A stretch of 49,560 nucleotides of DNA from Solimonas variicoloris DSM 15731 (GTDB taxonomy: Bacteria > Pseudomonadota > Gammaproteobacteria > Nevskiales > Nevskiaceae), in NCBI RefSeq assembly GCF_000382285.1, contig NZ_KB907945.1, forward strand, positions 1-49,560, read 5' to 3'. The notes under the pieces were generated by a model. That model ran no database searches, was not told the origin of the DNA, and saw nothing but the letters and a program-made list of their open reading frames with translations. Positions 12,843 to 33,957 of the stretch are shown piece by piece. Every line of letters starts with the position of its first letter. Position 1 is the first letter of the stretch. The translations under genes and the position numbers were made by a program.

Positions 12843-12844
12843 CG

Positions 12845-13792: not shown

Positions 13793-13842
13793 CGGCCGGC
13801 GCCCGGGAACGAAAGAGCGGTCTGAAAGCGAGGGGATCAGAC

Positions 13843-15924: not shown

Positions 15925-15965
15925 GCCCTGCAAAGACCTCCCCATGCCCCGCAGGTCTGGGGCTC

Positions 15966-16004
15966 CGGCGATCGATCGGCAGCGGTCGATCGCCGTATTT
16001 TTTT
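15966..16004 (+). terminator. Intrinsic terminator / attenuator before the second DUF1329 gene
   Basis: An inverted repeat CGGCGATCGA...TCGATCGCCG (15966-15975 and 15986-15995; the core stem is nine perfect pairs plus one) is followed by TATTTTTTT to 16004. The T-run directly abuts GGAG, the ribosome binding site of the next gene, whose ATG is at 16018. The hairpin therefore ends the first operon or tunes read-through into the second DUF1329 gene. Confidence 0.85.
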
Positions 16005-16017
16005 GGAGCAGCCACGC

Positions 16018-17385
16018 ATGCACCTGCGCCGCTACGGGCCCGGCTACAGCCGCCGCCATTTCCTCGCGCTGTCGGGCGCCGCCGCGGCCGGCGTGCTGAT
16101 GCCGCTGTGGGACGCGGTCGCGCAGACCGGCGAGGTCAGCAAGGCCTACCCGGACGAACTGCTGTCGATCGAGGCGTACAGCAAGGGCCGCATCAAGGCC
16201 GGCGACGAGATCACGGCGGCCAACGTCGAACTCGTCAAGGACCTGCTCGAGCCGATCAAGTACGTGCAGATCGCCACGCTCGGCCGCCGCCTGCGCGTGG
16301 CGCCGACGACGACCGAGATCATGCGGCTGTCGCCATGGGAATATCTGGAGGCGACGCTGAGGAACCGCGGCCAGGCGCGCTTCGACGCGCACGGCAATGT
16401 CGTCGCCGCCGACGGCCGGCCGTGGATCGGCGGCCATCCGTTCCCGGGCAGCACCGACGCGCTGGAGCTGATGGCCGGATTGACGCTGAGCTGGGGCCGC
16501 CACGACGCCGTGCTCTACGGCATGAAGGAGTACGACCTCGATCCGCAGGGCGAGATCGCCTTCGAGTACCAGGCCGGCTGGGCCGAGCTGTCGCCGGTCG
16601 CGCGCGTGCGTCTGGAGCCGAGGCCTTACTGGCCGGGCCGCGAGGACAAGCTGCGCTACCAGACGGTGTTCTTCGTCGGCCCGGACAGCGTCAAGGGCAC
16701 CGCCTATCTGAACGTCTGGGCCTACGACCAGCACGCGTTTCCCGAGCTGTACGGCTACCTGCCGGCGTTCAAGCGCATCCGCCAGTTTCCGACCGACCAG
16801 CGCTTCGAGCCGCTGGTGCCGGGCTCGACGCTGTATCTGTCGGACGCCTGGGCGGCCGGCGATCCGCTGCATACCTGGGGCAATTACCGCGTCGTCGGCC
16901 GTGGTCCGGCGCTGGCCGCGGTGTCCGGCGGCTGGAACGCGGCGCATCCGAACTGGGAGCACCGCACGCACGGCGGGCCCAAGGGCAAGACCTTCTGGGA
17001 CACCACCGTCGAGCTGGTGCCGGAGGCGATCATCGTCGAAGCCGAGCCGATCGGTTTCCCGCGCGCGCCGGTCAGCAAGAAACGCGTGTGGTTCGACGCG
17101 CGCACGCAGCTGCCGATCGCGATGGTCTCGTACGACCGCCGCGGCCAGCCGTACCGTTCCTTCGACGGCGCCTACGCGCTCTACGAGGACGGCGGCAAGT
17201 CGTTCAAGGACGGCGCGCATCCGTACTGGTCGTGGGCACACGTGCACGCCTACGACATCCAGAGCGGACGCATGACGCGCCTCGAACAGGTGCGCAGCAT
17301 CGCCGGTGGCCACGTGACCACCGTCAACGATGCGGCGATCTACGAACGCTACCTGACCAATGCCGCGCTGATGCGGCTCGGCTGA
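16018..17385 (+). CDS. Second DUF1329 protein with canonical Tat signal
   Basis: A 455-residue paralogue of the protein encoded at 11460-12842, similar along the whole length (KAYPDELLSIEAYSKGRI, LTLSWGRHD, FEPLVPGSTLYLSDAWAAG). The N-terminus YSRRHFLALSGAAAAG is a textbook twin-arginine signal. I use the ATG at 16018; a TTG at 16003 is inside the terminator T-run and ribosome binding site. No promoter is obvious between the terminator and the start, so expression probably depends on read-through. Having two diverged DUF1329 proteins suggests two carrier steps or two substrates. Confidence 0.87.
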   Translation: MHLRRYGPGYSRRHFLALSGAAAAGVLMPLWDAVAQTGEVSKAYPDELLSIEAYSKGRIKAGDEITAANVELVKDLLEPIKYVQIATLGRRLRVAPTTTEIMRLSPWEYLEATLRNRGQARFDAHGNVVAADGRPWIGGHPFPGSTDALELMAGLTLSWGRHDAVLYGMKEYDLDPQGEIAFEYQAGWAELSPVARVRLEPRPYWPGREDKLRYQTVFFVGPDSVKGTAYLNVWAYDQHAFPELYGYLPAFKRIRQFPTDQRFEPLVPGSTLYLSDAWAAGDPLHTWGNYRVVGRGPALAAVSGGWNAAHPNWEHRTHGGPKGKTFWDTTVELVPEAIIVEAEPIGFPRAPVSKKRVWFDARTQLPIAMVSYDRRGQPYRSFDGAYALYEDGGKSFKDGAHPYWSWAHVHAYDIQSGRMTRLEQVRSIAGGHVTTVNDAAIYERYLTNAALMRLG

Positions 17386-17568
17386 GCCGTCAGGTTCCGA
17401 CCCTGCCTGGCGCGGCAAGGCTGGCGTCTCCGGACGACCGGCCCTGCTGCGCCTTGGCGCGGAAGAGAACGCGAATCGAGGTCACGTCGCGGCCGGACGC
17501 GTGCCGGCGGTGCGTGCGGATGGAAGCGAAGTCGCGCGATCGGACGGCGTTGGTGTCGTCGGAATTCA
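17386..17568. other. Intergenic region before the second operon
   Basis: The 354-base gap between the second DUF1329 gene and the ketone carboxylase operon carries no gene in this first part and no clear terminator for the preceding gene. The control elements of the second operon begin at 17569 and are listed separately. Confidence 0.4.
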
Positions 17569-17671: not shown

Positions 17672-17743
17672 ATGCCAGTCATCGCTACGGGCCATGCCCT
17701 GCCTCCGTCCTCTTTTCTTTCTGCCACGGAGGTCGCGGCATGA
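17672..17743 (+). CDS. Putative 23-residue leader peptide overlapping the carboxylase gene
   Basis: ATG at 17672 follows GCGGAGGAGACCGCC, a very strong ribosome binding site. The frame encodes 23 residues (MPVIATGHALPPSSFLSATE then VAA) and ends in TGA at 17741-17743, overlapping the ATG of the next gene as ATGA. This is the classic arrangement for translational coupling. It is the first frame after the inferred promoter and mirrors the micro-ORF at 8812. No sequence family is recognised. A leader peptide or coupling device seems likelier than a stable protein. Confidence 0.5.
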   Translation: MPVIATGHALPPSSFLSATEVAA

Positions 17744-19701
17744 ATGCTGTACTCAAGGAGCGGTCCGATGCGCGGACCGCGGCGGCGCCGGCTACCGCTG
17801 GCAAGCTGATCAACATCGACAACGGCGGCACGCTGACCGACATCTGCGTGATCGACGGCAGCCAGGTCTGGCGCACCAAGACGCTGACCACGCCGTATGA
17901 CCTGTCGAAGTGCCTGTTCGAGGGTCTGCGCAAGGTCTCGCGCGTGATCTACGGCGAGGAAGACCTGCTCAAGCTGCTGCTGTCGACCGCGCACATCCGC
18001 TATTCGACGACGCAGGGCACCAACGCGCTGGTCGAGCGCAAGGGTCAGCGTCTCGGCCTGCTGCTGTCCGGACTCGACGCGGCGGCGCTGCAGGGCGATG
18101 CGCAGCAGCGCGACGTGTTCGCCGGCCTGGTCGGCCCGCGCGTCGAAATGCTCGACCTGTCGGCCGACGACGCGGCGCTCGAGATCGCCGCGACGCAGGC
18201 GATCAACCGGCTCGCCTCGGCCGGCGCCAACCGCATCGTCGTCGGTGTCGGCGGTGCGCAGCGCGACGCTGGCGAGACGCGGCTGAAGAAGATCCTGCTG
18301 AAGAAATTCCCGCCGCACCTGCTCGGCGCGATCCCGCTGCTGTACTCGCACGAAGTCGTGCAGGACGAAGACGACGCGCGCCGCGTCTGGACGGCGCTGT
18401 TCAACGCCTTCCTGCATCCGGCGATGGAGCGCTTCCTGTACAGCTCGGAGCATCGCCTGCGCGAGTACAAGACCAAGAATCCGCTGCTGATCTTCCGCAA
18501 CGACGGCGACTCGGCGCGCATCTCGCGCACGGCCGCGATCAAGACCTACTCGTCCGGCCCGCGCGGCGGCGCCGAGGGTGCCAAGGCGCTGGCCGCGCAC
18601 TACGGCTTCGAGCGCCTGCTCGGCATGGACATCGGCGGCACGACCACCGACATCAGCCTCGTCGAGGGCGGCGCCGTACGCACCGACCGGCGCGGCAAGA
18701 TCGAGGGCGTGGCGACCTCGCTGGCACTGTGCAACGTGGTCAGCGCCGGCGTCGGCGGCTCGTCGATCCTGTCGGTCGTCGATGGCCGCATCAAAGTCGG
18801 TCCGGAGAGCGTCGGCGGCGCGCCGGGGCCGGCCTGCTTCGGCCTCGGCGGCACCGAAGCGACGATCACCGACGCCTTTCTCGTGCAGGGCCTGCTCGAT
18901 CCGGCGAGCTACTTCGGCGGCGAGCTGAAGATCGACGTCGAGCGCGCGCGCGCGGCGATCGCCGAGAAGATCGCCAAGCCGCTCGGCCTGTCGGTCGAGG
19001 CCGCGGCGGCGGCGATGGAGAAGGCCTGGGTGCAGAAGGTCGCCGACGCGCTGAAGGCGTTCACGACCATCACTGCCGATACCACGCTGGCGGCGTTCGG
19101 CGGCGGCGGTCCGTTCCTGGCGACCCAGGTCGCCGAGGCGAGCGGCATCACCCGCGTCATCATCCCGGGCCTCGCCGCAGTGTTCTCGGCGTTCGGCATC
19201 GGCTTTTCCGACATCGCCCACGAATACGAGGCGCCGCTCGCCGACGGCGACGCGGCGACGATCCAGGCGGCGCGCGAGCAGCTGCTCGAACGCGCGCGCC
19301 GCGGCATGTTTGCCGAAGGCTTCGATCTCGCCGACTGCCGCGTCGAGACCTGGCTGCAGGTCGGCGACGAGCGCCAGCCGCTGCTCGGCGACGTGCCGCC
19401 GGCGCTGCCCAAGGGCACGAAGCCGTCGCTGCTGCTCAAGGCCACGCGCGTCATTGCCCGCGCCACGCTCGCCGGCCGGTTCGGCGCGGCGCGCCAGCAG
19501 GCGAGCGCCGACGGCACGCGCAGCGTGCGCATCGACGGCCAGGTCCAGGCCTTGCCGCTGTACCGCACCGAACAGCAGTCCGGCGGCGTGCAGGCGCAGG
19601 GGCCGTGCGTGCTCGAAGACGCCTTCTTCACCAGCCGCATCGACGCCGGCTGGCGCTTCGAGATCAACGAGTCCGGCGACATCCTGCTGAGCCGCGCCTA
19701 A
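17740..19701 (+). CDS. Acetophenone-carboxylase-like alpha subunit (hydantoinase A/oxoprolinase family)
   Basis: A 653-residue protein of the HyuA family with ASKHA-type ATPase motifs: NGGTLTD at residues 28-34 (N-terminal domain) and MDIGGTTTD near 296-304. It fits the roughly 70-kDa alpha subunit of acetophenone carboxylase, where alpha and alpha-prime are thought to phosphorylate ketone and bicarbonate before they are joined. The start at 17740 leaves a 20-residue Ala-rich lead; a longer frame upstream would include the micro-ORF region and is rejected. It heads the four-gene order alpha, gamma, alpha-prime, beta. N25-I-D-N-G-G is unusual in having Asn before GG, where the paralogue has Ile. 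Confidence 0.85.
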   Translation: MNAVLKERSDARTAAAPATAGKLINIDNGGTLTDICVIDGSQVWRTKTLTTPYDLSKCLFEGLRKVSRVIYGEEDLLKLLLSTAHIRYSTTQGTNALVERKGQRLGLLLSGLDAAALQGDAQQRDVFAGLVGPRVEMLDLSADDAALEIAATQAINRLASAGANRIVVGVGGAQRDAGETRLKKILLKKFPPHLLGAIPLLYSHEVVQDEDDARRVWTALFNAFLHPAMERFLYSSEHRLREYKTKNPLLIFRNDGDSARISRTAAIKTYSSGPRGGAEGAKALAAHYGFERLLGMDIGGTTTDISLVEGGAVRTDRRGKIEGVATSLALCNVVSAGVGGSSILSVVDGRIKVGPESVGGAPGPACFGLGGTEATITDAFLVQGLLDPASYFGGELKIDVERARAAIAEKIAKPLGLSVEAAAAAMEKAWVQKVADALKAFTTITADTTLAAFGGGGPFLATQVAEASGITRVIIPGLAAVFSAFGIGFSDIAHEYEAPLADGDAATIQAAREQLLERARRGMFAEGFDLADCRVETWLQVGDERQPLLGDVPPALPKGTKPSLLLKATRVIARATLAGRFGAARQQASADGTRSVRIDGQVQALPLYRTEQQSGGVQAQGPCVLEDAFFTSRIDAGWRFEINESGDILLSRA

Positions 19702-19715
19702 CGCGAGAACCCGAC

Positions 19716-20165
19716 ATGAAAGTCCTGATCACCGAATACCTGCGCATCAATCTCGACACCGAGCAGTGGGAGTGCCGCCGCTGCGGCCACGCGCACGGCA
19801 GCGCGCGCGACAACTACAAGCGCGGCCTGCTGGTCTATGACCGCGATCCGCGCGAGATCCACAAGCCGCTGCTCGATCCGAAGCTCTACGAGCGCACCTA
19901 TTCGCCGGACCCGCAGTGGTGCCGGATCCTCGAGTACTACTGCTCGTCGTGCGGAACGATGGTCGAAGTCGAGTACCTGCCGCCCGGCCATCCGCCGCTG
20001 CACGACATCGAACTCGACATCGACGCGCTGAAGCTGCAATGGCAGGACCGCGAGGAAGTCACCGAGCCGGCGCCCGCCCCGGACCTGGCGCTGGAGAAGG
20101 TCAAGCACGGCCGCGCGCTGCACGCCGAGATGCACCAGCACGGCGGCCACGGCCACCAGCACTAG
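19716..20165 (+). CDS. Acetone/acetophenone carboxylase gamma-like zinc subunit
   Basis: A 149-residue protein of the acetone carboxylase gamma family. It shows the expected cysteine pairs, ECRRCGHAHG (Cys20, Cys23) and YYCSSCGTMVEVEY (Cys76, Cys79), with Cys69 close by, forming a probable zinc-binding site, and the family block GLLVYDRDPREIHKPLL. The C-terminus is histidine-rich (MHQHGGHGHQH). The presence of this small subunit separates the complex from plain hydantoinases and 5-oxoprolinases, which lack it. It starts 14 bases after the alpha gene. Confidence 0.9.
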   Translation: MKVLITEYLRINLDTEQWECRRCGHAHGSARDNYKRGLLVYDRDPREIHKPLLDPKLYERTYSPDPQWCRILEYYCSSCGTMVEVEYLPPGHPPLHDIELDIDALKLQWQDREEVTEPAPAPDLALEKVKHGRALHAEMHQHGGHGHQH

Positions 20166-20234
20166 GCCGGCGCGCGGCCAGGCGTTTCATCGGCGGTTTG
20201 AACTTCCGCGGACTTCGAATCTAGAGACAGTGCG

Positions 20235-22370
20235 ATGAAAAGAGTTTCCGTAGACATCGGCGGCACCTTCACCGATACCTTCGTGGTCTGGGACAACCAG
20301 TACATCGAAGGCAAGGCGCTGACCACGCATCACAATCTGGCGCTGGGCTTCAACGAATCGCTCGGCGACGCCTGCAAACAGCTCAATGTCGAGCCGGCGC
20401 AGCTGCTGTCGGAAGTCGACTCGGTGCGCTATTCGACGACGCTCGGCACCAACGCGCTGATCGAGCGCAAGGGCCCGCGCATCGGCGTGCTGGTCACCAC
20501 CGGCTTCAAGAGCACGATCCCGCTGTCGCGTGCCCGCGGCTACGGCGAGGGCCTGTCCGAGCACGAGCAGATGGACATTCCGAACGCCCGGCGCCCGCAG
20601 CCGATCGTGCCGATTCCGATGATCCGCGAGGTGCGCGAGCGCATCGACTATCTCGGCCAGGTGTTCTGGACGCTCGACGAGGACGACGTGCGCCTGCGCA
20701 TCCGCGAACTCGTCGACGCCGGCGCCGAAGCGCTGGTCGTGCTGTTCACCAACAGCGTGGTGAACCCCGCGCACGAGCTGCGCGTGCGCGAAATCTTCCT
20801 CGAGGAGTATCCGGCGCATCTGCTCGGCGCGATCCCGATGCTGCTGAGTCATCAGGTCGCCGGCCGAAAGGGCGAGTACGCGCGCGGCACCTCGACGATC
20901 ATGGACGCGTTCCTGCACCAGACCATGTATCACGGCCTCGGCACGCTGGAGCTGAACCTGCGCGCGCAGGGCTACAACAAGCCGATGCTGGTCAGCCACA
21001 ACTCGGGCGGCATGGCGCAGCTGAACTCGACCGACGCGCTGCAGACCGTGCATTCCGGCCCGGTCTCCGGCATCGCCGCCAGCGAACATCTGGCCGCCGC
21101 CGCCGAACTCGGCAACGTGGTCGCCACCGACATGGGCGGCACCAGCTTCGACATCGGCATCGTCGACCAGAGCGGCGTCAAGCACTACGACTTCAATCCG
21201 GTGATCGACCGCTGGCTGGTGTCGATCCCGATGGTGCATCTGGTCACGCTCGGCGCCGGCGGCGGCTCGATCGCGCGCTACGACCGCATGTTCGGCTCGA
21301 TCGAGCTCGGCCCCGAGTCGGCCGGCTCCGATCCGGGCCCGGCCTGCTACGACCGCGGCGGCCTCAAGCCGACGGTCACCGACGCCGATCTCCTGCTCGG
21401 CTATCTCGATCCGAAGAACTACGCCAACGGCCGCATTCCGCTCAATCCGAAGCGCGCCAGGCAGGCGGTCGAGGACCATCTCTGCGACGAGCTCGATCTG
21501 TCGGTCACCGAGACCGCCAAGCTGATCAAGCGCAACGTCGACGCCAGCATGGCCAACGGCATCGCCACCGAGCTGCGCACGCGCGGCTACGAGCCCAAGG
21601 ATTTCACCATCCTCGCCTACGGCGGCAATGGCCCGCTGCACGCCTGCGGCATCGCCAACGCGCTCGGCGTGTCGAAGATCCTGGCGCCGCCGTTCTCGTC
21701 GACCTTCTCGGCCTGCGGCGCCGGCAACGTCAACCAGATGCACATCCACGAGATGAGCACCTGGACGGTGCTGTTCAATCCGGCCACCAAGCGCTTCTTC
21801 AACGACTACGAGAAGTTCAACCGGAACGTCGAGGAACTGGAGCGCCGCGGCCGCGAGGACCTGCTGCGCCAGGGCATGGACGAAAAGCAGATCCGCTACC
21901 GCCTCGAACTCGACATGCGCTACGGCAACCAGCGCGTGCAGACCGCCGTCGTCACCGAGCTGAACCGCCTGCACACGCAGAAGGACGTGCTGGCCCTGAT
22001 GGACCAGTTCCACGAGAGCTACGGCGCGCGCTTCGGCGAGGGCAGCCAGTCGCCGGAGACCGGCGTGCGCATCAACACGATCCGCGTCTGCGCCTACGTC
22101 GAGCAGCCGAAGGTCGCGTTCGCCAAGCTCAAGCTCGGCGACAAGACCATCGCGCCGCCGGCGCCGGTCGGACAGCGCGACTGCCATTTCGTCGGCCACG
22201 ACCGGCCGCTGGCGACGCCGGTCTACGACGACAAGGCGCTCGCCGAGGGAACGCGCATCGAAGGGCCTGCGATCGTCACCACGCGCGCCACGACCTATCT
22301 GGTCGAACCGGGCTGGACCTACCGCGCCGCGGCGCAGGGCGGGGTCTGGTTCATCAAGGAAAACGCTTAA
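20235..22370 (+). CDS. Acetophenone-carboxylase-like alpha-prime subunit (hydantoinase A family)
   Basis: A 711-residue HyuA-type protein with DIGGTFTDTFVVWD at residues 7-20 and a second phosphate-binding motif TDMGGTSFDIG near 298-308. In between, VRYSTTLGTNALIERKGPRI matches the conserved substrate-proximal region. Its length fits the 78-kDa alpha-prime subunit of acetophenone carboxylase or the beta subunit of acetone carboxylase. It is clearly diverged from the alpha gene at 17740, so the two are not a recent duplication. The 69 bases before it contain no promoter I can recognise, so it is read as part of the operon. Confidence 0.88.
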   Translation: MKRVSVDIGGTFTDTFVVWDNQYIEGKALTTHHNLALGFNESLGDACKQLNVEPAQLLSEVDSVRYSTTLGTNALIERKGPRIGVLVTTGFKSTIPLSRARGYGEGLSEHEQMDIPNARRPQPIVPIPMIREVRERIDYLGQVFWTLDEDDVRLRIRELVDAGAEALVVLFTNSVVNPAHELRVREIFLEEYPAHLLGAIPMLLSHQVAGRKGEYARGTSTIMDAFLHQTMYHGLGTLELNLRAQGYNKPMLVSHNSGGMAQLNSTDALQTVHSGPVSGIAASEHLAAAAELGNVVATDMGGTSFDIGIVDQSGVKHYDFNPVIDRWLVSIPMVHLVTLGAGGGSIARYDRMFGSIELGPESAGSDPGPACYDRGGLKPTVTDADLLLGYLDPKNYANGRIPLNPKRARQAVEDHLCDELDLSVTETAKLIKRNVDASMANGIATELRTRGYEPKDFTILAYGGNGPLHACGIANALGVSKILAPPFSSTFSACGAGNVNQMHIHEMSTWTVLFNPATKRFFNDYEKFNRNVEELERRGREDLLRQGMDEKQIRYRLELDMRYGNQRVQTAVVTELNRLHTQKDVLALMDQFHESYGARFGEGSQSPETGVRINTIRVCAYVEQPKVAFAKLKLGDKTIAPPAPVGQRDCHFVGHDRPLATPVYDDKALAEGTRIEGPAIVTTRATTYLVEPGWTYRAAAQGGVWFIKENA

Positions 22371-22390
22371 TCACGACGGAGCACTCTCCC

Positions 22391-24667
22391 ATGTACGACA
22401 ACATCTCCGCCGAAGAGCAGGCCCTGCTCGACAAGTTCCTCGCCGACAACAAGATGTTCCTCGGCCCCGACCCCGAGATCATGCGCGACCACACGGTGAC
22501 GCCGCGCTCGGCCGCCGAAGAGGAAGTGCTGAAGAAGGGTTTCGATGCGCACCAGGCGCATCACATCCGCGGCCTGATCAACGCGGCGCTGTCGGAAGCG
22601 TTCACGATGGTCAACCAGATGGGCGCCGCGCCGGGCGCGAAGTGGGGCGATCTCGTCACCGCGATCTATACCGCCGACGGCAACCTCGCGATGATCGCGC
22701 CGCACGGCATCATCACCTTCGCCGCCTGCGCGTTCTATCCGATCCGCTTCATCATCAAGAACTGGATGAACGATCCGACCGTCGGCGTGAAGGACGGCGA
22801 CGGCTTCATCCACAACGATGCGCGCTACGGCGGCGTGCACAACACCGACCAGTCGATGATGATGCCGCTCTACTACAAGGGCGAGCTGATCTGCTGGCTG
22901 TCGAGCACGATCCACGAGGGCGAGAACGGCGCCTGCGAGCCGGGCGGCCTGCCGGCCGCGGCGGAGAGCAAGTACGACGAAGGCATCAAGATGTCGCCGT
23001 TCAAGGTCGTGGAGAACTTCCAGATCAAGCGCGACCTCGTCACCTTCCTGCAGAACTCGGTGCGCGATCCGAAGCTGCAGCTCGAGGACATGAAGGTCAA
23101 GCTGCACGCCGTCATGCGCCTGCGCGACCGCATCACCGCGATCCTCGACCAGTTCGGCCGCGACGCGCTGATCGCGACCATGCGCATGCACCTCGAGGAC
23201 ACCGAGGCCGAAGTGCGCCGCCGCATCCGCGAGCTGCCGGACGGCACCACGCGCGTGCTGCAGTTCATGGACTCCAGCCTGCGCGAGAACTGCCTGCAGA
23301 AGATCAGCGTGGCGATCACCGTCAAGGGCGATCGCATGATCGCCGACTTCCGCGGCACCGCACCGCAGTTCATGAACCGCTCGGTCAACACCAATCTCGC
23401 CTCGTTCAAGGCGGCGCTGGCGACCGGCCTGCTGCAGAACATCTGGCCGGACCTGCCGCACACGATGGCGGTGCTGTCGCCGATCGAGGTCATCACCGAC
23501 AAGAACTCGATCATCGACGCCGAGGGCGAGATGCCGCAGGCGATGAGCCTGATGCCGCTGTTCAAGGCCTGCGTCGCCTGGACGGTGCCGATGGCCAAGT
23601 TCAACTACAGCCTGCCGAAGCGCTACTCGGCGATCATCGCCTCGCAGTACGACCAGGCGGCGACCTTCATCTACGGCGGCCTTACCCAGCACGGCGACGT
23701 CACCGGCAACTTCTGCGGCGACATCAACGGCATGGGCCAGGGCGCGCGCAGCCACGCCGACGGCGAGCACAGCGTCTCGCCGGTGTTCGGCTTCATGGCG
23801 GACTCGGGCGAGCACGAGATCAACGAGGAAGACACGCCGATCATCCGCCTCGGCGCGCAGCGCCTCGCCAAGGACCGCATCGGCTTCGGCAAGTACCGCG
23901 GCGGCATGGGCTACGAGCAGATCGCCACGGCGCGCGGCTCCGGCATGTGGGGCTTCATGACCGGCTGCGAGGGTTCGAAGTTTCCGTCGGCACAGGGCCT
24001 GTTCGGCGGCTATTCGTGCCCGGCCTACCAGCTGCTGAAGATCAAGGGCGTCAACATCTTCGAGGAACTGAACAAGGACCCGAAGGTGGTCGAGGTGTTC
24101 GACATCGTCAAGCTGATGAACGAGCGCCCGCTCAAGGGCGGCAAGTACAGCAGCAACGACATGGGCATGACCTTCGAGCTGTGCAACGAAGGCGAGATCT
24201 ACATGATCTGCCAGGGCGCCGGCGGCGGCTACGGCGACGTGCTCGAGCGCGATCCGGCGCTGGTCATGAAGGACGTCGAGGAAGACCTGCTGTCGGCCGA
24301 TCTGGCGCGCGAGATCTACAAGGTCGTGTTCGACGAGCGCACGCTGGTCGTCGACGAGGCCGCGACGCGCCAGCTGCGCGACGACGAGCGCCGCGCCCGC
24401 CTGCAGCGCGGCAAGCCGTTCGACGCCTTCTGCAAGGAATGGGTCACGCCCGAGCCGCCCGCCGACCTGCCGTACTTCGGCAGCTGGGACGACAACAGCA
24501 AGATCTACGCGCAGAACCCGGCGATCAACCTCAAGGTGGTGATGCCGGCCGACCAGCTGCAGGGCTTCTACATGCCCAACCCCAAGGATCTGCAGATCGC
24601 CACGCTGGAGGCGAAACTCGCCGCGGCGCAGGCGGCGCTCGAAGCCTGCCAGGCGGCGGGCCGCTGA
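22391..24667 (+). CDS. Acetophenone-carboxylase-like beta subunit (hydantoinase B family)
   Basis: A 758-residue HyuB-type protein, the carboxylating partner of HyuA subunits. Family blocks include KWGDLVTAIYTADGNLAM, the glycine/asparagine-rich VKDGDGFIHNDARYGGVHNT near 133-152 and GQGARSHADGEHS near 450. It is about 84 kDa, above the 75 kDa reported for the acetophenone enzyme and close to acetone carboxylase alpha. The C-terminal 40 residues form a predicted helix (IATLEAKLAAAQAALEACQA). It starts 20 bases after the alpha-prime gene behind GGAGCA. Confidence 0.88.
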   Translation: MYDNISAEEQALLDKFLADNKMFLGPDPEIMRDHTVTPRSAAEEEVLKKGFDAHQAHHIRGLINAALSEAFTMVNQMGAAPGAKWGDLVTAIYTADGNLAMIAPHGIITFAACAFYPIRFIIKNWMNDPTVGVKDGDGFIHNDARYGGVHNTDQSMMMPLYYKGELICWLSSTIHEGENGACEPGGLPAAAESKYDEGIKMSPFKVVENFQIKRDLVTFLQNSVRDPKLQLEDMKVKLHAVMRLRDRITAILDQFGRDALIATMRMHLEDTEAEVRRRIRELPDGTTRVLQFMDSSLRENCLQKISVAITVKGDRMIADFRGTAPQFMNRSVNTNLASFKAALATGLLQNIWPDLPHTMAVLSPIEVITDKNSIIDAEGEMPQAMSLMPLFKACVAWTVPMAKFNYSLPKRYSAIIASQYDQAATFIYGGLTQHGDVTGNFCGDINGMGQGARSHADGEHSVSPVFGFMADSGEHEINEEDTPIIRLGAQRLAKDRIGFGKYRGGMGYEQIATARGSGMWGFMTGCEGSKFPSAQGLFGGYSCPAYQLLKIKGVNIFEELNKDPKVVEVFDIVKLMNERPLKGGKYSSNDMGMTFELCNEGEIYMICQGAGGGYGDVLERDPALVMKDVEEDLLSADLAREIYKVVFDERTLVVDEAATRQLRDDERRARLQRGKPFDAFCKEWVTPEPPADLPYFGSWDDNSKIYAQNPAINLKVVMPADQLQGFYMPNPKDLQIATLEAKLAAAQAALEACQAAGR

Positions 24668-24731
24668 GGCGCGCTCGCCATCACGCGGCCGCGCCGCTGA
24701 CGACAACGACTATCACCAGGGGAGAGCTTCG

Positions 24732-25544
24732 ATGACCGATTACGGCAAGCGGTTCCGTCTCGACGGCAAGGTGGCACTGGTCAGCGGCGCGGCGCGCGGC
24801 ATCGGCGCCGAGATCGCGCTGGCGCTGGCGCAGGCCGGCGCGCGCGTGATCGTCAGCGATGTCGCCGACGGCGGCGGACGCGCGACGGCGCAGGCCATCG
24901 CCGCCGCCGGCGGCAGCGCCGACGCCTGCGTGCACGACGTCACCGTCGAGGCGCAGTGGGAGGCGGCGGTCGCGCTCGCGCAGCACCGCTACGGACGCCT
25001 CGACGTGCTCGTCAACAACGCCGGCATCGAGACCGCGGCGCTGCTCGCGCAGTGCACGCTCGACGACTTCCGCCGCGTCATGGACATCAACGTCAACGGC
25101 GTCTTCCTCGGCGTCAAGCATGCGATCCGGGCGATGGCCAAGCCGCAGGGGCAGGGCGGTTCGATCATCAATCTGTCGTCGGTCGCCGGCCTGATCGGCA
25201 CGACCGGGCACGCCGCCTACCACACGTCCAAAGGCGCGGTGCGCCTGCTGACCAAGGCGGCGGCCGTCGAGTGCGCGCAGCTCGGCACCGGCATCCGCGT
25301 CAATTCCGTGCATCCGGCGATCGTCGCCACCGACATGGGCACGAACTTCATCCAGCACTTCGTCGATCTGGGGCTCGCGCCGGACTACGCGACGGCCGAG
25401 GCCGCGATCAAGGCCGCGCACCCGCTCGGCCGCTTCGGCGAGCCGGCCGACGTCGCCAGCGCCGTCGTCTATCTCGCCTCCGACGCCGCGCAGTGGGTGA
25501 CCGGCACCGAGCTGGTGCTGGACGGCGGCTACACCGCGGCCTGA
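24732..25544 (+). CDS. SDR-family NAD(P)-dependent alcohol dehydrogenase
   Basis: A 270-residue classical SDR: SGAARGIG near residues 18-25, NNAG near 95, the NLSS strand with serine, and YHTSK near 162-166. It closes with GTELVLDGGYTA as in the fabG/3-alpha,20-beta-hydroxysteroid dehydrogenase branch. In the anaerobic ethylbenzene pathway, a comparable SDR (1-phenylethanol dehydrogenase) makes the ketone that acetophenone carboxylase consumes, so the same pairing is the natural hypothesis. It is within the operon, 64 bases after the beta-subunit gene behind GGGGAGAG. Confidence 0.85.
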   Translation: MTDYGKRFRLDGKVALVSGAARGIGAEIALALAQAGARVIVSDVADGGGRATAQAIAAAGGSADACVHDVTVEAQWEAAVALAQHRYGRLDVLVNNAGIETAALLAQCTLDDFRRVMDINVNGVFLGVKHAIRAMAKPQGQGGSIINLSSVAGLIGTTGHAAYHTSKGAVRLLTKAAAVECAQLGTGIRVNSVHPAIVATDMGTNFIQHFVDLGLAPDYATAEAAIKAAHPLGRFGEPADVASAVVYLASDAAQWVTGTELVLDGGYTAA

Positions 25545-25554
25545 GCGCGCGACC

Positions 25555-26382
25555 ATGAACCGCTTCGAAGAACTGCTCGCCGCGCGCGCGGCGCTGTGGC
25601 TGGACTACGCCGACTACGCCGGCGCGCTGCTCGCCGGCGGCAGCGCGCCCTGGCTCGACGCCTCGGCGCTGATCGCCTGGCAGCGCAAGGCGCAGGGCCT
25701 GCTGCGTTCCGACGTCGTCGAGCTGCCGCTCGGCGCCGTCGCCGCCGCCTGGCTCGCCGCGCACGCCCCGCTGCGCGAGGCCATGCGCGCCAAGCGCCGC
25801 GCCGTGTTCCCGCTGCGCACGCTGCTCGCCGACGAGGCCTGGCGCGCGCATCTGGCCGAGCTCGCCGGCGGCCTGCGCGCCAGCTTCGCGGCGCAGCCGC
25901 TGGCGCTGGCCTGCCCGTCGCCGCGGCGCTGGCTGCTCGACGCCTACCAGGCCGCGCACGGCGAGGCGCCGGAGATCGACGACGACGAGGTCGAAAGCGC
26001 CGCTGTCTATCTCGCCGACTTCCTGCGCTGCTTCGGCGAGACCGGCGTCGACCTGCTGCTGCTGCAGGAGTCGGCCGCCAGCGAGCCCGGCGAGGCCTCG
26101 GCGCTGGCCGCCTATCAGCCGGTGCTCAACGTCGCCGCGCACTATCGCTGGAGCGCCGGCCTGTCGGCGCCCGCCGGGCGCTACGCGGGCGGCGAGGCGC
26201 CGCTCGATTTCGTCGTCGCGCCGCAGCCGGCGGCGGCGCGCTACGCGGCGCAGCTGGTGCCGGCCGCGTACTGGAGCGGCGGCGAGGCGCCGCCGTGTCC
26301 GCCCGGCGGCTTCCGCTACGCCGGCATTCCCGGTGACGCGCAGCCCGAAGCCGTGCTGCAGCGCCTCGCGGCGCTGCGCTGA
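25555..26382 (+). CDS. Unrecognised operon protein, candidate fifth (epsilon-like) carboxylase subunit
   Basis: A 275-residue soluble protein starting 10 bases after the SDR. I recognise no domain with confidence. The alternation of long Ala/Leu-rich helices with short strands (ALACPSPRRWLLDAYQAAHG; ETGVDLLLLQES near 160-171) recalls a TIM-barrel of the uroporphyrinogen decarboxylase type, but weakly. Acetophenone carboxylase needs a separate fifth protein of about 34 kDa in addition to the four-subunit core. This 29-kDa protein has the right operon position and a similar size. Assignment as that subunit is a hypothesis only. Confidence 0.6.
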   Translation: MNRFEELLAARAALWLDYADYAGALLAGGSAPWLDASALIAWQRKAQGLLRSDVVELPLGAVAAAWLAAHAPLREAMRAKRRAVFPLRTLLADEAWRAHLAELAGGLRASFAAQPLALACPSPRRWLLDAYQAAHGEAPEIDDDEVESAAVYLADFLRCFGETGVDLLLLQESAASEPGEASALAAYQPVLNVAAHYRWSAGLSAPAGRYAGGEAPLDFVVAPQPAAARYAAQLVPAAYWSGGEAPPCPPGGFRYAGIPGDAQPEAVLQRLAALR

Positions 26383-26397
26383 ACGGGAGACGCGACG

Positions 26398-27315
26398 ATG
26401 CATCTGCCGCCCCGCTTCGTGCCGCCGGCGCTGCGCCTGCTCAAGCGCGCGCTGCAGCCGGGCGTGCCGGTCGCCGTGCAGCGCGCGCTGTCGGCCGCCG
26501 CGCTGCGCGCGCTGCCGCCGCCGCGCGGCACCGAGCGCCGCCACGCCACGCTCGGCGGCGTGCCGGTCGAGCGGCTGCGCCGCCGCGGCACGCGGCCGAC
26601 GACACGGATCCTCTATCTGCACGGCGGCGGCTACGTGCTCGGCTCGCCGGCCACGCATCGCGCCATCACCGTGCGCCTGGCGCTGCACAGCGGCGCGGAG
26701 CTGATCGTGCCGGACTACCGGCTCGCGCCCGAGCATCCGCATCCGGCCGCGCTCGACGACGCGCGCGAAGTCTGGCGCGCGCTGCTCGACGAGGTTGGCG
26801 ACGCCGCGCGCATCGCCGTCGCCGGCGATTCGGCCGGCGGCGGCCTCGCGCTGGCGCTGGCGCTGGCCCTGCGCGACGCCGGCCAGGGCCTGCCGGCGGC
26901 GCTGGCGACGATTTCGCCGTGGACCGATCTGGCGCTGAGCGGCGCCAGCGTGCAGGCGCGCGCCGCGCGCGACCCGCTGCTGACGCCGGCCTGCGGCGCG
27001 CACTGGTCGGCGCTGTATCGCGGCGGCCTGGCCGCCGACACGCCGGCCTGCTCGCCGCTGTACGCCGATCCCGCCGGGTTGCCGCCGCTGCTGGTCCACG
27101 TCGGCAGCGAGGAAATCATCTACGACGACGCGCAGCGCTGGGTCGACAAGGCGCGCGCCGCCGGCGTCGCGGTGACGCTGCGCGAGTACGCCGGGCTCTG
27201 GCACGACTTCCACTTGCAGGCCGGGCTGCTGCGCGAGGCCGACGACGCGGTCGCCGAGATCGCTGCCTTCTGCGCCGCCGCGCTGGCCGCCGACACCGTC
27301 CGGGAGCGGACATGA
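26398..27315 (+). CDS. Alpha/beta hydrolase, hormone-sensitive-lipase family
   Basis: A 305-residue esterase-type protein with the oxyanion motif LHGGGYVLGSP near residue 77, nucleophile motif AGDSAGGGLA (serine near 144), and C-terminal histidine in GLWHDFHLQ near 272. The acidic residue is expected in VGSEEIIYDD near 238; many relatives have Asp where Glu is found, which I note without knowing its effect. HSL-family enzymes hydrolyse short or bulky esters and lactones, so it may open an ester formed upstream in the pathway. Its TGA overlaps the next ATG (ATGA). Confidence 0.85.
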   Translation: MHLPPRFVPPALRLLKRALQPGVPVAVQRALSAAALRALPPPRGTERRHATLGGVPVERLRRRGTRPTTRILYLHGGGYVLGSPATHRAITVRLALHSGAELIVPDYRLAPEHPHPAALDDAREVWRALLDEVGDAARIAVAGDSAGGGLALALALALRDAGQGLPAALATISPWTDLALSGASVQARAARDPLLTPACGAHWSALYRGGLAADTPACSPLYADPAGLPPLLVHVGSEEIIYDDAQRWVDKARAAGVAVTLREYAGLWHDFHLQAGLLREADDAVAEIAAFCAAALAADTVRERT

Positions 27316-27785
27316 ACGACACCGATTTCGCATTGCGCGGCGAGCCGCTGTTTTCGATGCAGGCGACGCTGCAGGCGCCGCCCGAGCTGATCGGGCCGGT
27401 GCCGGAGGGCATCCGCGTGACCTTCTACGTCAGCGGCGGCCGCGTCGAGGGGCCGCGCCTGCGCGGCCGGCTGCGTCCGGTCGGCGCCGACTGGTTCACG
27501 CTGCGCCGCGACGGCGTCGGCCAGCTCGACGTGCGCGCGACCATCGAGACCGACGACGGCGCGCTGATCCAGGTCGATTACCCGGGCCTGACCGACGTCG
27601 GCGCCGACGCCTACGAGCGCTTCCTCGCCGGCGAGATGCCGCCGCGGCTGGCATTGCACACCGGCCCGCGGCTGCGCACGGCGCATCCGGACTACCAGTG
27701 GCTGCAGCGCCTGTACTGCGTCGGCGTCGGCGAGGCCGACCTGCAGACCTTCGAGGTCCGCTACCGGGTCTACGCGCTGCGCTAG
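27312..27785 (+). CDS. DUF3237 family protein
   Basis: A 157-residue DUF3237 protein. The family pattern is present: an N-terminal strand LFSMQATLQAPPELIG, then VPEGIRVTFYVSGGRVEGPRLRGR, with DWFTLRRDGVGQLDVRATIETDDGALIQVDYPG in the centre, written here in parts. It is a small beta-barrel family of unknown activity often found in aromatic or terpenoid degradation clusters. The start overlaps the hydrolase stop by four bases, so the two are translationally coupled and may act in the same step. Confidence 0.85.
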   Translation: MNDTDFALRGEPLFSMQATLQAPPELIGPVPEGIRVTFYVSGGRVEGPRLRGRLRPVGADWFTLRRDGVGQLDVRATIETDDGALIQVDYPGLTDVGADAYERFLAGEMPPRLALHTGPRLRTAHPDYQWLQRLYCVGVGEADLQTFEVRYRVYALR

Positions 27786-27830
27786 CGCCGCCGGCAGGCC
27801 CTGGGCATACGAGAACAAGAGGAGAACGAC

Positions 27831-29870
27831 ATGGTGCAGGAAGGCGAGTTGCTGTGGACGCCGCGGCCCGAGTTCGCGGAGCGCTCGCAGATCGCCCGCT
27901 ACCAGCGCTGGCTGCGCGAGCAGCGCGGCGTCGACACCGGCGACTACGCGGCGCTGTGGCGCTGGTCGGTCGACGAGCCCGAGGCCTTCTGGGCGACGAT
28001 CTGGGACTACTTCGACGTGCAGTCCTCGGTGTCGTACTCGCAGGTGCTCGACCGCCGCGCGATGCCCGGCGCGAAGTGGTTCGAGAACTCGCGCGTCAAC
28101 TACGCCGAGCATCTGCTGCGCCACGAGAAGACCGCGCCGGACGCGCCGGTCTTCCACCACCTGTCGGAGACGCGGCCGCTGGCGACGATGTCGTGGCGCG
28201 AGCTCGGCCGTCAGGTCCGCATCCTCGCCACACAGCTGCGTGCGCTCGGCGTGCGGCCGGGCGATCGCGTGGTGTCGTACATGCCGAACGTGCCGGAAAC
28301 CGCGATCGCGATGATGGCGACGGTCGCGATCGGCGCGGTGTGGTCGTCGGCGGCGCCGGAGTTCGGCGTGCAGACCGTCATCGAGCGCTTCTCGCAGATC
28401 GAGCCCAAGGTGCTGTTCGCGGCCGACGGCTACCGCTTCGGCGGCAAGGACTTTTCACGCGAGGCCGAGGTGCGCCGCATCGTCGATGCACTGCCGTCGC
28501 TGCAGACGCTGATCTGGCTGCCGTACCTGCAGCCCGACGCGGCGCCGCCGGCCTGGCCGGCGCTGCGCCGCTGGGACGATCTGCTGGCGCAGCCGGAAGT
28601 GCCGGCCGAGTCGTTCCGCTACGAGCACGTCGCCTGGGACCATCCGCTGTGGGTGGTGTTCTCGTCGGGCACCACCGGCCTGCCGAAGGCGATCGTGCAC
28701 AGCCACGTCGGTGCGCTGCTCGAGCATCTCAAGCTGATGCACTTCCACCTGAATCTCGGCCCGGATTCGGTGATGTTCTTCTACAGCACCACCGGCTGGA
28801 TGATGTGGAACCTGCTGCTGGCGGCGCTGCTCACCGGCAGCGCGATCGTGCTCTACGACGGCAATCCGGCGCATCCGTCGCCGGATTTCCTCTGGCAGCT
28901 CGCCGCCGACACCGGCACGACCAGCTTCGGCGCCAGCCCGACCTACGTGCAGATGATGGAGAAAGCCGGCCTGGTGCCCGGCGAGCGCTTCGACCTGTCG
29001 CGGCTGGAGTCGATCGTCGTCGCCGGCGCGCCGTCGACGCCGGAGACCTTCGCCTGGTTCTACCGCTGCGTGAAGAAGGATCTGTGGGTGACCTCGCAGT
29101 CCGGCGGCACCGAGCTGTGCAGCGGCTTCGTCGGCGCCGCGCCGACGCTGCCGGTGCATGCCGGCGAGATCCAGACGCGCCTGCTCGGCATGGACGTGCG
29201 TGCCTGGAGCGACGATGGCCGCGAACTCGTCGACGAAGTCGGCGAGCTGGTCGTGACCACGCCGTTTCCGTCGATGCCGGTGCGCTTCTGGAACGACGAA
29301 GGCGGCAAGCGCTATCGCGAATCGTACTTCGAGGCCTTCGATCACATCCGCCCCGGCATCTGGCGGCATGGTGACTTCATCAAGATCAACGCGCGCGGCG
29401 GCTGCTACATCTACGGCCGTTCGGATTCGACGCTAAACCGCTACGGCGTGCGCATCGGCACCGCCGAGATCTACCGCGCGGTCGAACAGGTGCCGGAAGT
29501 CGCCGACAGCCTGATCGTCTGCTGCGAACTGCCGGGCGGCAATTTCTTCATGCCGCTGTTCGTGCGCCTCAAGCCCGGCATCGAGCTCGACGAGGCGCTC
29601 GTGCGCCGCATCAACGCGCGCCTGCGCGAGGACTGCAGCCCGCGCCACGTGCCCGACAAGATCTACGCGGTCGCCGCCGTGCCGTACACGCTGACCGGCA
29701 AGAAGATGGAAGTGCCGGTGCGCAAGCTCTTGATGGGCTGGCCGCTCGAAAAGGCCGCGAGCCGCGACGCGATGATGAATCCCGAGGCGATCGACTGGTT
29801 CGTGCGCTTCGCTGCCGAGAGCCGCGACTACGACTGGCGCGGTGCCGCGCCGGCCTCGGCGCAGGCCTGA
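27831..29870 (+). CDS. Acetoacetyl-CoA-synthetase-like 3-oxoacid CoA ligase, copy 1
   Basis: A 679-residue adenylate-forming enzyme of the acetoacetate-CoA ligase branch. Visible are the N-terminal RVNYAEHLLRH block, the AMP-binding loop SSGTTGLPKAIVHSHVG near 278-294, the substrate loop SQSGGTELCSGF near 423, hinge GRSDSTLNRYGVRIGT near 530, and the catalytic lysine in TLTGKKMEVPVRK near 622. Benzoylacetate-CoA ligase of the acetophenone pathway belongs to this branch, so activation of the carboxylated ketone is the expected job. It starts 45 bases after the DUF3237 gene behind AGAGGAGAA. Copy 2 at 31848 is similar throughout. Confidence 0.88.
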   Translation: MVQEGELLWTPRPEFAERSQIARYQRWLREQRGVDTGDYAALWRWSVDEPEAFWATIWDYFDVQSSVSYSQVLDRRAMPGAKWFENSRVNYAEHLLRHEKTAPDAPVFHHLSETRPLATMSWRELGRQVRILATQLRALGVRPGDRVVSYMPNVPETAIAMMATVAIGAVWSSAAPEFGVQTVIERFSQIEPKVLFAADGYRFGGKDFSREAEVRRIVDALPSLQTLIWLPYLQPDAAPPAWPALRRWDDLLAQPEVPAESFRYEHVAWDHPLWVVFSSGTTGLPKAIVHSHVGALLEHLKLMHFHLNLGPDSVMFFYSTTGWMMWNLLLAALLTGSAIVLYDGNPAHPSPDFLWQLAADTGTTSFGASPTYVQMMEKAGLVPGERFDLSRLESIVVAGAPSTPETFAWFYRCVKKDLWVTSQSGGTELCSGFVGAAPTLPVHAGEIQTRLLGMDVRAWSDDGRELVDEVGELVVTTPFPSMPVRFWNDEGGKRYRESYFEAFDHIRPGIWRHGDFIKINARGGCYIYGRSDSTLNRYGVRIGTAEIYRAVEQVPEVADSLIVCCELPGGNFFMPLFVRLKPGIELDEALVRRINARLREDCSPRHVPDKIYAVAAVPYTLTGKKMEVPVRKLLMGWPLEKAASRDAMMNPEAIDWFVRFAAESRDYDWRGAAPASAQA

Positions 29871-29885
29871 AAGGAGACCGCGAAC

Positions 29886-30647
29886 ATGGGGCGAGTACAG
29901 GACAAGGTCTGCGTCGTCACCGGCGGTGCCCGCGGTCTCGGGCTCGCCGCCGCCGAAGCGCTGCTCGCCGAGGGCGCACGCGTGCTGCTCACCGACGTCG
30001 ACCGCGCCGCCGGCGAGGCCGAGGCGCGGCGGCTCGGCGCGCGCGCGCGTTTTCGCGTGCAGGACGTCACCGACGCCGCGCAGTGGGCGGCGACGCTCGA
30101 CGCGGCGTTCGCCGAGTGGGGGCGTCTCGACGTGCTCGTCAACAACGCCGGCATCGCCGGCATCGCCGACGTCGAGCGCATCTCGCTCGCCGACTGGCAG
30201 CGCACGCTCGACATCAATCTGAGCGGCGTGTTTCTCGGCACGCAGGCGGCGATCGCGCGCATGAAGGCCGGCGGTGGCTCGATCGTCAACATCGCCTCGA
30301 TCGAAGGCCTGATCGGCGAGCCGCTGATTCCCGCCTACAACGCCAGCAAGGGCGGCGTGCGCCTGTTCACGCGCTCGGCGGCGGTGCACTGCGCGCGCAG
30401 CGGCTATCCGGTGCGCATCAACAACGTCTGCCCCGGCTTCGCCGAGACGCAGATGGTGGCCGGCGCGCTGGCGTCGATGGCGCCGGACGACGCGCAGAAC
30501 TTCGCGGCGCGCACGCTGGCGCGCATTCCGCTCGGCCGCTTCGCGCGGCCGGCCGAGATCGCCGCCTGCGTGCTGTTCCTGGCGTCGGACGAATCGAGCT
30601 ACGTGACCGGCGCCGACCTCGTCGTCGACGGCGGCATGACCGCCTGA
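29886..30647 (+). CDS. SDR-family oxidoreductase
   Basis: A 253-residue classical SDR starting 15 bases after the ligase. TGGARGLG is at residues 13-20, NNAG near 88, the SIVNIAS strand near 134, and YNASKGG near 152-158, ending GADLVVDGGMTA. It is in the same broad branch as the SDR at 24732 but only moderately similar, so probably acts at a different position or with different stereochemistry. With the fourth SDR at 33958 it makes three SDRs in the operon, more than a simple methyl-ketone pathway needs. Confidence 0.85.
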   Translation: MGRVQDKVCVVTGGARGLGLAAAEALLAEGARVLLTDVDRAAGEAEARRLGARARFRVQDVTDAAQWAATLDAAFAEWGRLDVLVNNAGIAGIADVERISLADWQRTLDINLSGVFLGTQAAIARMKAGGGSIVNIASIEGLIGEPLIPAYNASKGGVRLFTRSAAVHCARSGYPVRINNVCPGFAETQMVAGALASMAPDDAQNFAARTLARIPLGRFARPAEIAACVLFLASDESSYVTGADLVVDGGMTA

Positions 30648-30696
30648 GCGCGGCAATCCCGAACGACAACGACATCCGCAGAATCCGAGGAGAACC

Positions 30697-31833: not shown

Positions 31834-31847
31834 CGGGCGCGCACGCC

Positions 31848-33872: not shown

Positions 33873-33909
33873 CGGCGCGTCGCGCGATCCGCCCATTTCC
33901 CGAACCCAC

Positions 33910-33929
33910 GTCCCGCGCCGGAGCGGGAC
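33910..33929 (+). promoter_or_regulatory. Intercistronic hairpin before the HSDL2-like gene
   Basis: GTCCCGC-GCCGGA-GCGGGAC forms a perfect seven-pair hairpin in the 85-base gap between the second ligase and the HSDL2-like SDR. No T-run follows, so it is not an intrinsic terminator. It could be an RNA-stability or processing element. The gap is longer than most in the operon. Confidence 0.35.
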
Positions 33930-33957
33930 TTCACACCCACAACGGAGCGGCACGTCC

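Follow-up and report, generated by a model that had tools for sequence, protein, structure and literature searches.

Among described systems, the closest to the one reported here is the acetophenone carboxylase (Apc) of Aromatoleum aromaticum (core 5L9W, epsilon subunit 9FOU). According to PMC5214803, its genes follow the order apcABCD(E), encoding alpha' (ApcA), gamma, alpha (ApcC), beta and epsilon, and an RERIDYLG-type fingerprint is assigned to alpha. The same text, at its time, counts one characterised enzyme of the Apc branch, with close epsilon relatives in two other clusters only, and mentions diverse Apc-like clusters; for Rhodococcus ruber, an apc1-4 cluster is mentioned in PMC6498646. 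Apc-type enzymes spend two ATP, each converted to ADP, on every ketone that they carboxylate and are biotin-free, and alpha' is absent from acetone carboxylase and the hydantoinases. Here we analyse a contig of Solimonas variicoloris (termed the window; the entire contig of 49,560 bases, 69% GC, from a 4.1-Mb genome), whose positions 17740-26382 on the + strand most probably encode, judging by sequence, a complete Apc-type ketone carboxylase with five subunits, ATP-dependent and biotin-free, belonging to a sister class of acetophenone carboxylase.

Core subunits and active sites

All six genes that an earlier sequence-only reading had placed in this interval were found at the same coordinates. 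Guanine-plus-cytosine content by codon position picks five of the six; the gamma gene is not picked, as longer frames overlap it, and its call rests on homology. The genes encode alpha' (ApcA-like, 653 residues, proposed bicarbonate kinase; 17740-19701; Pfam Hydant_A_N and Hydantoinase_A), gamma (ApcB-like, 149 residues with zinc-finger cysteines; 19716-20165; Acetone_carb_G, 3e-39), alpha (ApcC-like, 711 residues, HyuA-type with a C-terminal domain, proposed ketone kinase; 20235-22370), beta (ApcD-like, HyuB-type, 758 residues; 22391-24667), a short-chain dehydrogenase/reductase (SDR1; 24732-25544; adh_short_C2, 6e-63) and a 275-residue protein treated below as epsilon (25555-26382). The order alpha', gamma, alpha, beta, epsilon is that of Apc, with the SDR gene sitting between beta and epsilon. 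The sequence-only reading had thus named the right gene set, including the SDR and the sixth gene, but had exchanged the two alpha labels: the first HyuA is alpha' and the second is alpha, which carries the RERIDYLG fingerprint described in PMC5214803.

In searches of the PDB, the first match of each core subunit is 5L9W, with E-values of 3e-92 for alpha' (chain 5l9w_b), 1e-31 for gamma (5l9w_C), 5e-157 for alpha (5l9w_B) and 6e-82 for beta (5l9w_A), compared to 4e-37, 2e-12, 7e-88 and 3e-33 for the best acetone carboxylase. A tree of 57 beta rows, midpoint-rooted and carrying a long-branch warning, places the window inside a class of 36 rows (support 100/99). This class, four Apc-like rows and the lone row L210 are split from three acetone-carboxylase-type rows, typed by a three-gene order in which gamma comes last (96/94). 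A further split (100/99) sets all of these apart from 13 other HyuB-type rows, which we took as hydantoinase or oxoprolinase type from Pfam matches and open frames. One of the 13, L087, bears the depositor's name apc4, yet is a two-gene HyuA-HyuB pair. In a tree of 90 alpha and alpha' rows built with a quick method, window alpha' and Apc alpha' fall in one clade (Shimodaira-Hasegawa-like approximate likelihood ratio test, 99). Profiles and trees agree in rejecting hydantoinase, oxoprolinase and three-subunit acetone carboxylase, in line with the sequence-only reading of an Apc-type ATP-dependent ketone carboxylase.

Gene content points the same way. Acetone carboxylase (AcxABC) shares the HyuA, HyuB and gamma folds with the window, but consists of three subunits only, in the order alpha, beta, gamma, lacks alpha' and epsilon, and occupies a separate branch of the beta tree. 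The ATP-dependent hydantoinases, caprolactamases and 5-oxoprolinases share the HyuA and HyuB folds, but they are two subunits or one fused chain without gamma, alpha' or epsilon and lie on a distant beta branch.

The residues expected of such an enzyme are conserved. Both HyuA subunits retain the phosphate and adenosine motifs of two ASKHA-type ATP sites, as is the case in Apc: alpha' has DNGGTLTD, DIGGTTTD and GGAPGP, and alpha has DIGGTFTD, DMGGTSFD and GSDPGP. RERIDYLG, of the R/KERiDsxG type, occurs in alpha alone. The four cysteines of gamma are retained in CxxC pairs (20/23 and 76/79), and Apc has such pairs too. Beta residues D87, H150, D153 and H175 align with D65, H123, D126 and H148 of Apc, which bind mercury in 5L9W, and with the manganese ligands E89, H150, D153 and H175 of acetone carboxylase, three of which bear the same numbers while acidic D87 stands for E89. 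These ATP, metal and zinc sites, like the subunit identities, the gene order and the epsilon homology, are directly computed features of the locus.

The substrate pocket differs. Window alpha has T72, V272, H273, P276, I324, H335 and L336 (TVHPIHL), so that two of the seven Apc alpha pocket residues are kept and five are changed. Among the tree rows, TVHPIHL is found in 26 of 35 class alphas, TIHPIHL in eight and TMHPIYM in the archaeal one, whereas the Apc-like alphas have LFNPIQT in 4/4. Since the signature is common to the class, it speaks in favour of a substrate other than acetophenone, but not of a separate one for each locus.

The fifth subunit

The sixth gene had been called an unknown protein in the sequence-only reading, a label that no longer holds: by fold, profile and co-occurrence the 275-residue protein is very probably the epsilon subunit, a homologue of ApcE. 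Its predicted structure, modelled from the 55 sequences that also make up the profile below, has a mean predicted local distance difference test score of 96.4. When this model was searched against the PDB, the top three matches were ApcE chains of 9FOU (E 3.4e-8 to 1.7e-7), with template-modelling scores of 0.63-0.67 normalized by query length and 16-18% sequence identity; the fourth match, at E 8e-4, lies about four orders of magnitude behind.

For the profile comparison we used 55 sequences, namely the window protein and 54 of the 55 proteins from named loci with a profile match (one was too short). Aligned by hhalign against three ApcE sequences, this 55-row profile gives E 3.4e-7 and a probability of 93 over 167 columns by default, or 245 columns with a relaxed alignment threshold, and the reversed-sequence controls give 0.8 and 0.1 under either setting. 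A shallower comparison, against a pair of ApcE relatives, yielded a weak match (E 4e-4, probability 34). The NCBIfam ApcE model reaches five of the 55 family members, with 1.1e-5 as the best value, and the window protein is not among them.

Moreover, epsilon follows the class. Across 41 related genomes, all 16 that have a class beta also have it, as does one of the 25 that lack a class beta (p 1.6e-10, a value that ignores kinship). The lone epsilon without a class beta is a partial match (E 4e-6), and genome G013, which has just an Apc-like beta of 28% identity, was counted as being without a class beta. A separate Apc-like locus of a relative, L079, has an epsilon that is ApcE by sequence (9fou, E 3e-26) and also bears a weak resemblance, short of the cut-off, to uroporphyrinogen decarboxylase (Pfam URO-D, 6e-4).

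Distribution of the class and subunits in trans

A scan of named genomes with beta found 405 relatives, of which the best 80 were taken, giving 78 loci of at least 52% identity. Neighbours were counted within 9 kb of beta in the 53 named loci, out of the 78 fetched, that had enough flank. Gamma and alpha are each found in 52 of these 53 loci, alpha' in 48 and epsilon in 41. A strong acetoacetate-CoA-ligase-like match (at least 500 bits) is present in 31 loci, or 33 if weak ligases are counted, the DUF5938 gene in 13 and the outer-membrane DUF1302 gene in seven. Because the gene string recurs in related genomes, with close relatives sharing much of it from the envelope module to the ligases, and because the subunits co-locate across loci, it is not a product of chance.

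In an even sample of the phylum, nine of 398 genomes have the gamma subunit; in addition to the window genome, six of the nine were opened, and of these six G116, G352 and G470 contain the class. Overall the class is found in Pseudomonadota and Actinomycetota, and in single metagenome bins labelled Bacteroidota and Ignavibacteriota. It is also carried by plasmids. Beta matched 250 plasmid records; 20 were among the matches listed and six were opened. The class is present on records from Cupriavidus necator N-1 (81%), Neorhizobium petrolearium, Rhodococcus jostii RHA1 (pRHL2), R. qingshengii and the archaeon Halorientalis marina (42%), and was not found on the Pleomorphomonas record. The protein 3' of beta matches the epsilon profile with E under 1e-50 in Neorhizobium, R. 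jostii and R. qingshengii, and in Cupriavidus an SDR follows beta and is itself followed by epsilon (44% identity). A plasmid search with an ApcE relative as the query found nothing. On the haloarchaeal plasmid (L086, 7385-15201) the order is alpha', gamma, alpha, beta, hypothetical protein, and genes for a thiolase and AMP-binding ligases lie close by; the protein after beta was considered as an epsilon and discarded, as it shows no significant likeness (E 0.26).

Some related loci are built differently. A paralogous class, of about 64% identity in beta, consists of gamma-alpha-beta loci without an adjacent alpha' (L042, 7779-12803; L062, 1962-7033; L065, 11027-15934; L069, 12278-17095), several of which have an SCP-x thiolase and a divergent LuxR regulator as neighbours. 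L210 (3643-11129, - strand) is a deep Apc-like locus with the order alpha', gamma, a 289-residue protein, alpha and beta; the 289-residue protein is ApcE-like by eye and has no family match. Separate Apc-like loci exist in relatives of the window (L076-L079). Two of these, L076 (16314-18341) and L077 (6968-8964), stand beside what we take, by eye, to be a G3E-type GTPase and a protein like beta-keto-acid cleavage enzyme, and such an enzyme next to Apc-like loci would mean another benzoylacetate route. In L078 (1423-2307) and L077 (16078-17118), a gene that reads as an alpha/beta-hydrolase lies between alpha' and gamma.

To follow loci without a complete set, we searched the genomes behind 12 of them, approximately those without a nearby epsilon (L116 in place of L150); five of the 12 loci without a nearby epsilon also have no alpha' nearby. 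A full-length alpha' of at least 44% identity exists somewhere in all 12 genomes, and epsilon in 10, as one copy each except for two in G485. Both genomes that lack epsilon are bins from marine metagenomes (2.2 and 2.6 Mb). Each genome has one to seven betas at E up to 1e-100, among them two weak rows of 32-33% identity in G483 and G491. G483 has six class betas, a further one of 33% identity and one epsilon, and G490 has three betas and one epsilon, while in two Hydrocarboniphaga genomes a distance of about 418 kb or 236 kb separates the single beta from its epsilon. Since loci lacking alpha' or epsilon mostly have these elsewhere in the genome, often in fewer copies than beta, the system might be modular, with several gamma-alpha-beta cores per cell sharing one alpha' and one epsilon in trans and the window set acting on isoprenoid or long-chain methyl ketones; taken as a whole, we regard this proposal as rather unlikely.

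The window locus was compared with Solimonas flava (L094) in 500-base steps. DNA identity is 91-99% at 12463-17462 and 26463-34462, and 72-92% at 17963-26462, from within alpha' to the last quarter of epsilon; it climbs again near 26200, which delimits a divergent block of about 18000-26180. Alpha' is nearer in DNA to S. marina (85.5%) than to S. flava (78.1%), and the same holds for gamma, alpha and beta, but not for SDR1 and epsilon. Because both flanks of the divergent stretch are 91-99% identical, core and epsilon seem to have moved together as a unit. In its simplest reading, this suggests that the carboxylase core was replaced by recombination with a breakpoint inside epsilon; fast divergence is the alternative.

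Neighbouring genes, proposed route and alternatives

The carboxylase genes are preceded by an envelope module and followed by a further run of genes, all on the + strand. Upstream lie an AmeD-like inner-membrane transporter of the RND (resistance-nodulation-division)/MMPL type (8939-11380; Pfam MMPL, 2e-27), which is kept upstream in several relatives, a first, putative DUF1329-type periplasmic protein (11460-12842), an AmeC-like YCF48/BNR-repeat periplasmic protein (12845-13792; PSII_BNR, 7e-14), an AmeA-like DUF1302 outer-membrane protein (13843-15924; 4e-30) and a second DUF1329/LolA-like protein (AmeB-like; 16018-17385; DUF1329, 2e-53). The first DUF1329 copy is named from its open frame and from DNA identity: 11522-12735 is 70.5% identical to L094 3610-4826, the site of the second DUF1329 copy of S. 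flava. Downstream of epsilon are an alpha/beta hydrolase of the hormone-sensitive-lipase type, an esterase (26398-27315; Abhydrolase_3, 8e-56), acetoacetate-CoA-ligase-like enzyme 1 (27831-29870; NCBIfam acetoacetate--CoA ligase, 923 bits with a cut-off of 639), SDR 2 (29886-30647; adh_short_C2, 2e-63), a saccharopine-dehydrogenase-like DUF5938 oxidoreductase (30697-31833; 4e-135), the putative acetoacetate-CoA-ligase-like enzyme 2 (31848-33872), an SDR that matches NCBIfam PRK08278 (33958-34806; 406 bits, cut-off 250), for which we keep the HSDL2-like label of the sequence-only reading, and an SCP-x-type thiolase (34816-35997; lipid-transfer protein PRK08256, 670 bits, cut-off 436). Ligase-like enzyme 2 is likewise named from its open frame and DNA identity, 31976-33855 being 76% identical to L094 15517-17417, the site of the S. 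flava copy of ligase-like enzyme 1. On the - strand follows a MalT/LuxR-type regulator (36048-38759; TPR_MalT and GerE), which recurs beside many relatives and possibly regulates the carboxylase cluster. The same contig carries an IS110-family transposase gene (42372-43415, - strand).

The catalysis, the direction of the pathway and the substrate we infer by analogy, with chemistry carried over from Apc (PMC5214803) and acetone carboxylase (PMC5543143). Most likely the enzyme would add carbon dioxide to a ketone for its breakdown. The ketone would probably be made from a secondary alcohol by the SDR at 24732-25544, a role modelled on its Ped analogue. Alpha would phosphorylate the ketone enol, alpha' would form carboxyphosphate from bicarbonate, and the C-C bond would form in the core, where the metal site of beta lies, with epsilon binding being required to close and activate the complex. 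The ligase-like enzymes and the SCP-x thiolase downstream suggest a route from ketone to beta-keto acid to CoA ester and on to cleavage: the former would activate the beta-keto acid to its CoA ester, and the latter would split this into acetyl-CoA and a shorter acyl-CoA. The envelope module, the SCP-x thiolase and the HSDL2-like SDR had led the sequence-only reading to see a new setting, from which it had omitted the two ligase-like genes. The setting is less foreign than was claimed, because the SDR, the beta-ketoacid-CoA-ligase-like enzymes and the thiolase correspond to the ped, apc, bal and thiolase steps described for Aromatoleum in PMC4729919.

As for the substrate, AmeABCD of Castellaniella defragrans is encoded next to genes of terpene catabolism and combines components of the DUF1302, DUF1329, COG4447 (YCF48-like) and RND (HAE3) types; a mutant without this module grows only poorly on monoterpene hydrocarbons (PMC6394551). 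The window module has another gene order and a second DUF1329 gene, and is likened to AmeABCD by its components. The mutant phenotype suggests a hydrophobic terpenoid or alkyl ketone for the window locus; from the envelope module, we tentatively propose that the substrate may be a hydrophobic aliphatic or isoprenoid methyl ketone. The module and the pocket differences are also what might point to the bulky hydrophobic ketone of the sequence-only reading. Isoprenoid ketones can be carboxylated by bacteria. Literature searches on the carboxylation of isoprenoid or methyl ketones, and on such a carboxylase in Solimonas, turned up no relevant paper. The enzyme treated in PMC8461187 is biotin-dependent. 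In a Haliea bin (L145, 16439-22232), the cluster is followed by genes that, from their translation starts only, read like a leucine/isovalerate (liu) set; an isoprenoid ketone or methyl isobutyl ketone would be a matching substrate.

Several observations weigh against a five-subunit Apc-type carboxylase acting in ketone breakdown. The four core subunits fall far short of the NCBIfam Apc equivalog cut-offs (366/1250, 135/250, 551/1500 and 310/1500 bits), and beta is just 28-31% identical to Apc-like betas. With 758 residues, beta also exceeds that of Apc (684) and lies, like gamma (149), between Apc and Acx (776 for beta; 129 and 168 for gamma), lengths that favour neither family. Trees, which were to decide the family assignment of the sequence-only reading, set beta and alpha' outside the hydantoinases and oxoprolinases, but do not fix, for alpha, the order among Apc, the class and the acetone carboxylase plus hydantoinase type. 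Taken alone, the window 275-residue protein has no Pfam or NCBIfam family match, and the epsilon profile did not retrieve 9fou from PDB sequences at E up to 10. No epsilon is near beta in 12 of the 53 loci and no alpha' in five, and an SCP-x thiolase of at least 300 bits is found within 9 kb in only three; that of the window, about 10 kb behind beta, is itself outside this limit. The ligase-like enzymes could belong to another pathway. Finally, we found no reports of activity, growth or expression for class members in the literature.

These points bear differently on the other explanations. An assimilatory or biosynthetic ketone carboxylase, or one acting on a carbonyl other than a methyl ketone (a cyclic ketone or a ketosteroid side chain), would fit the sterol-carrier-type thiolase, the several SDRs and the DUF5938 reductase beside 13 of 53 loci, but ligase, thiolase and envelope module look catabolic and no ring-opening gene was recognised among the scanned window genes, which makes it unlikely. 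Acetophenone carboxylase proper, or another aryl-methyl-ketone carboxylase, has the same subunits in the same order, and the nearby SDR and CoA ligase recall the ped and apc-bal system in PMC4729919; the ligases of the window are, unlike those of Apc, acetoacetate-CoA-ligase-like. We consider this very unlikely, since the window misses the equivalog cut-offs, that for beta being reached by L076, an Apc-like locus of the same bacterial family (1561/1500), and the changed pocket is absent from the Apc-like alphas. Relatives, moreover, hold the distinct loci L076-L079, and in L079 the three large subunits score 1026, 1300 and 1256 bits, under the cut-off and far above the window. The missed cut-offs and the five changed pocket residues are also what sustains the earlier proposal that the ketone is probably not acetophenone. 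A hydantoinase-, lactamase- or oxoprolinase-type ATP-dependent hydrolase carrying extra subunits would have HyuA and HyuB folds too, and caprolactamase models do match, with scores of 426 and 135 bits that stay under the cut-off. It is highly improbable, however, because gamma, alpha' and epsilon are carboxylase subunits and the beta tree sets the window apart from hydrolase-type rows. Likewise, that the system consists of the four core subunits only, the 275-residue protein being a TIM-barrel enzyme unrelated to it, appears extremely improbable: TIM barrels are common, and the missing family match and the failed PDB retrieval speak for it, but the distance to the next fold, the failed reversed control and the 16/16 co-occurrence do not.

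By sequence, the Solimonas locus belongs to a widespread sister class of Apc. We found no description of this class or its epsilon in the literature, including ApcE papers from 2018 on, in a search that left out most subscription journals. The signature T[VI]HPIHL may serve to recognise such loci. As epsilon is a regular partner in this large, sequence-divergent class, its members would supply many natural enzymes for testing the elusive roles of epsilon and alpha', and the class may point to a common, biotin-free and CO2-fixing attack on inert ketones.

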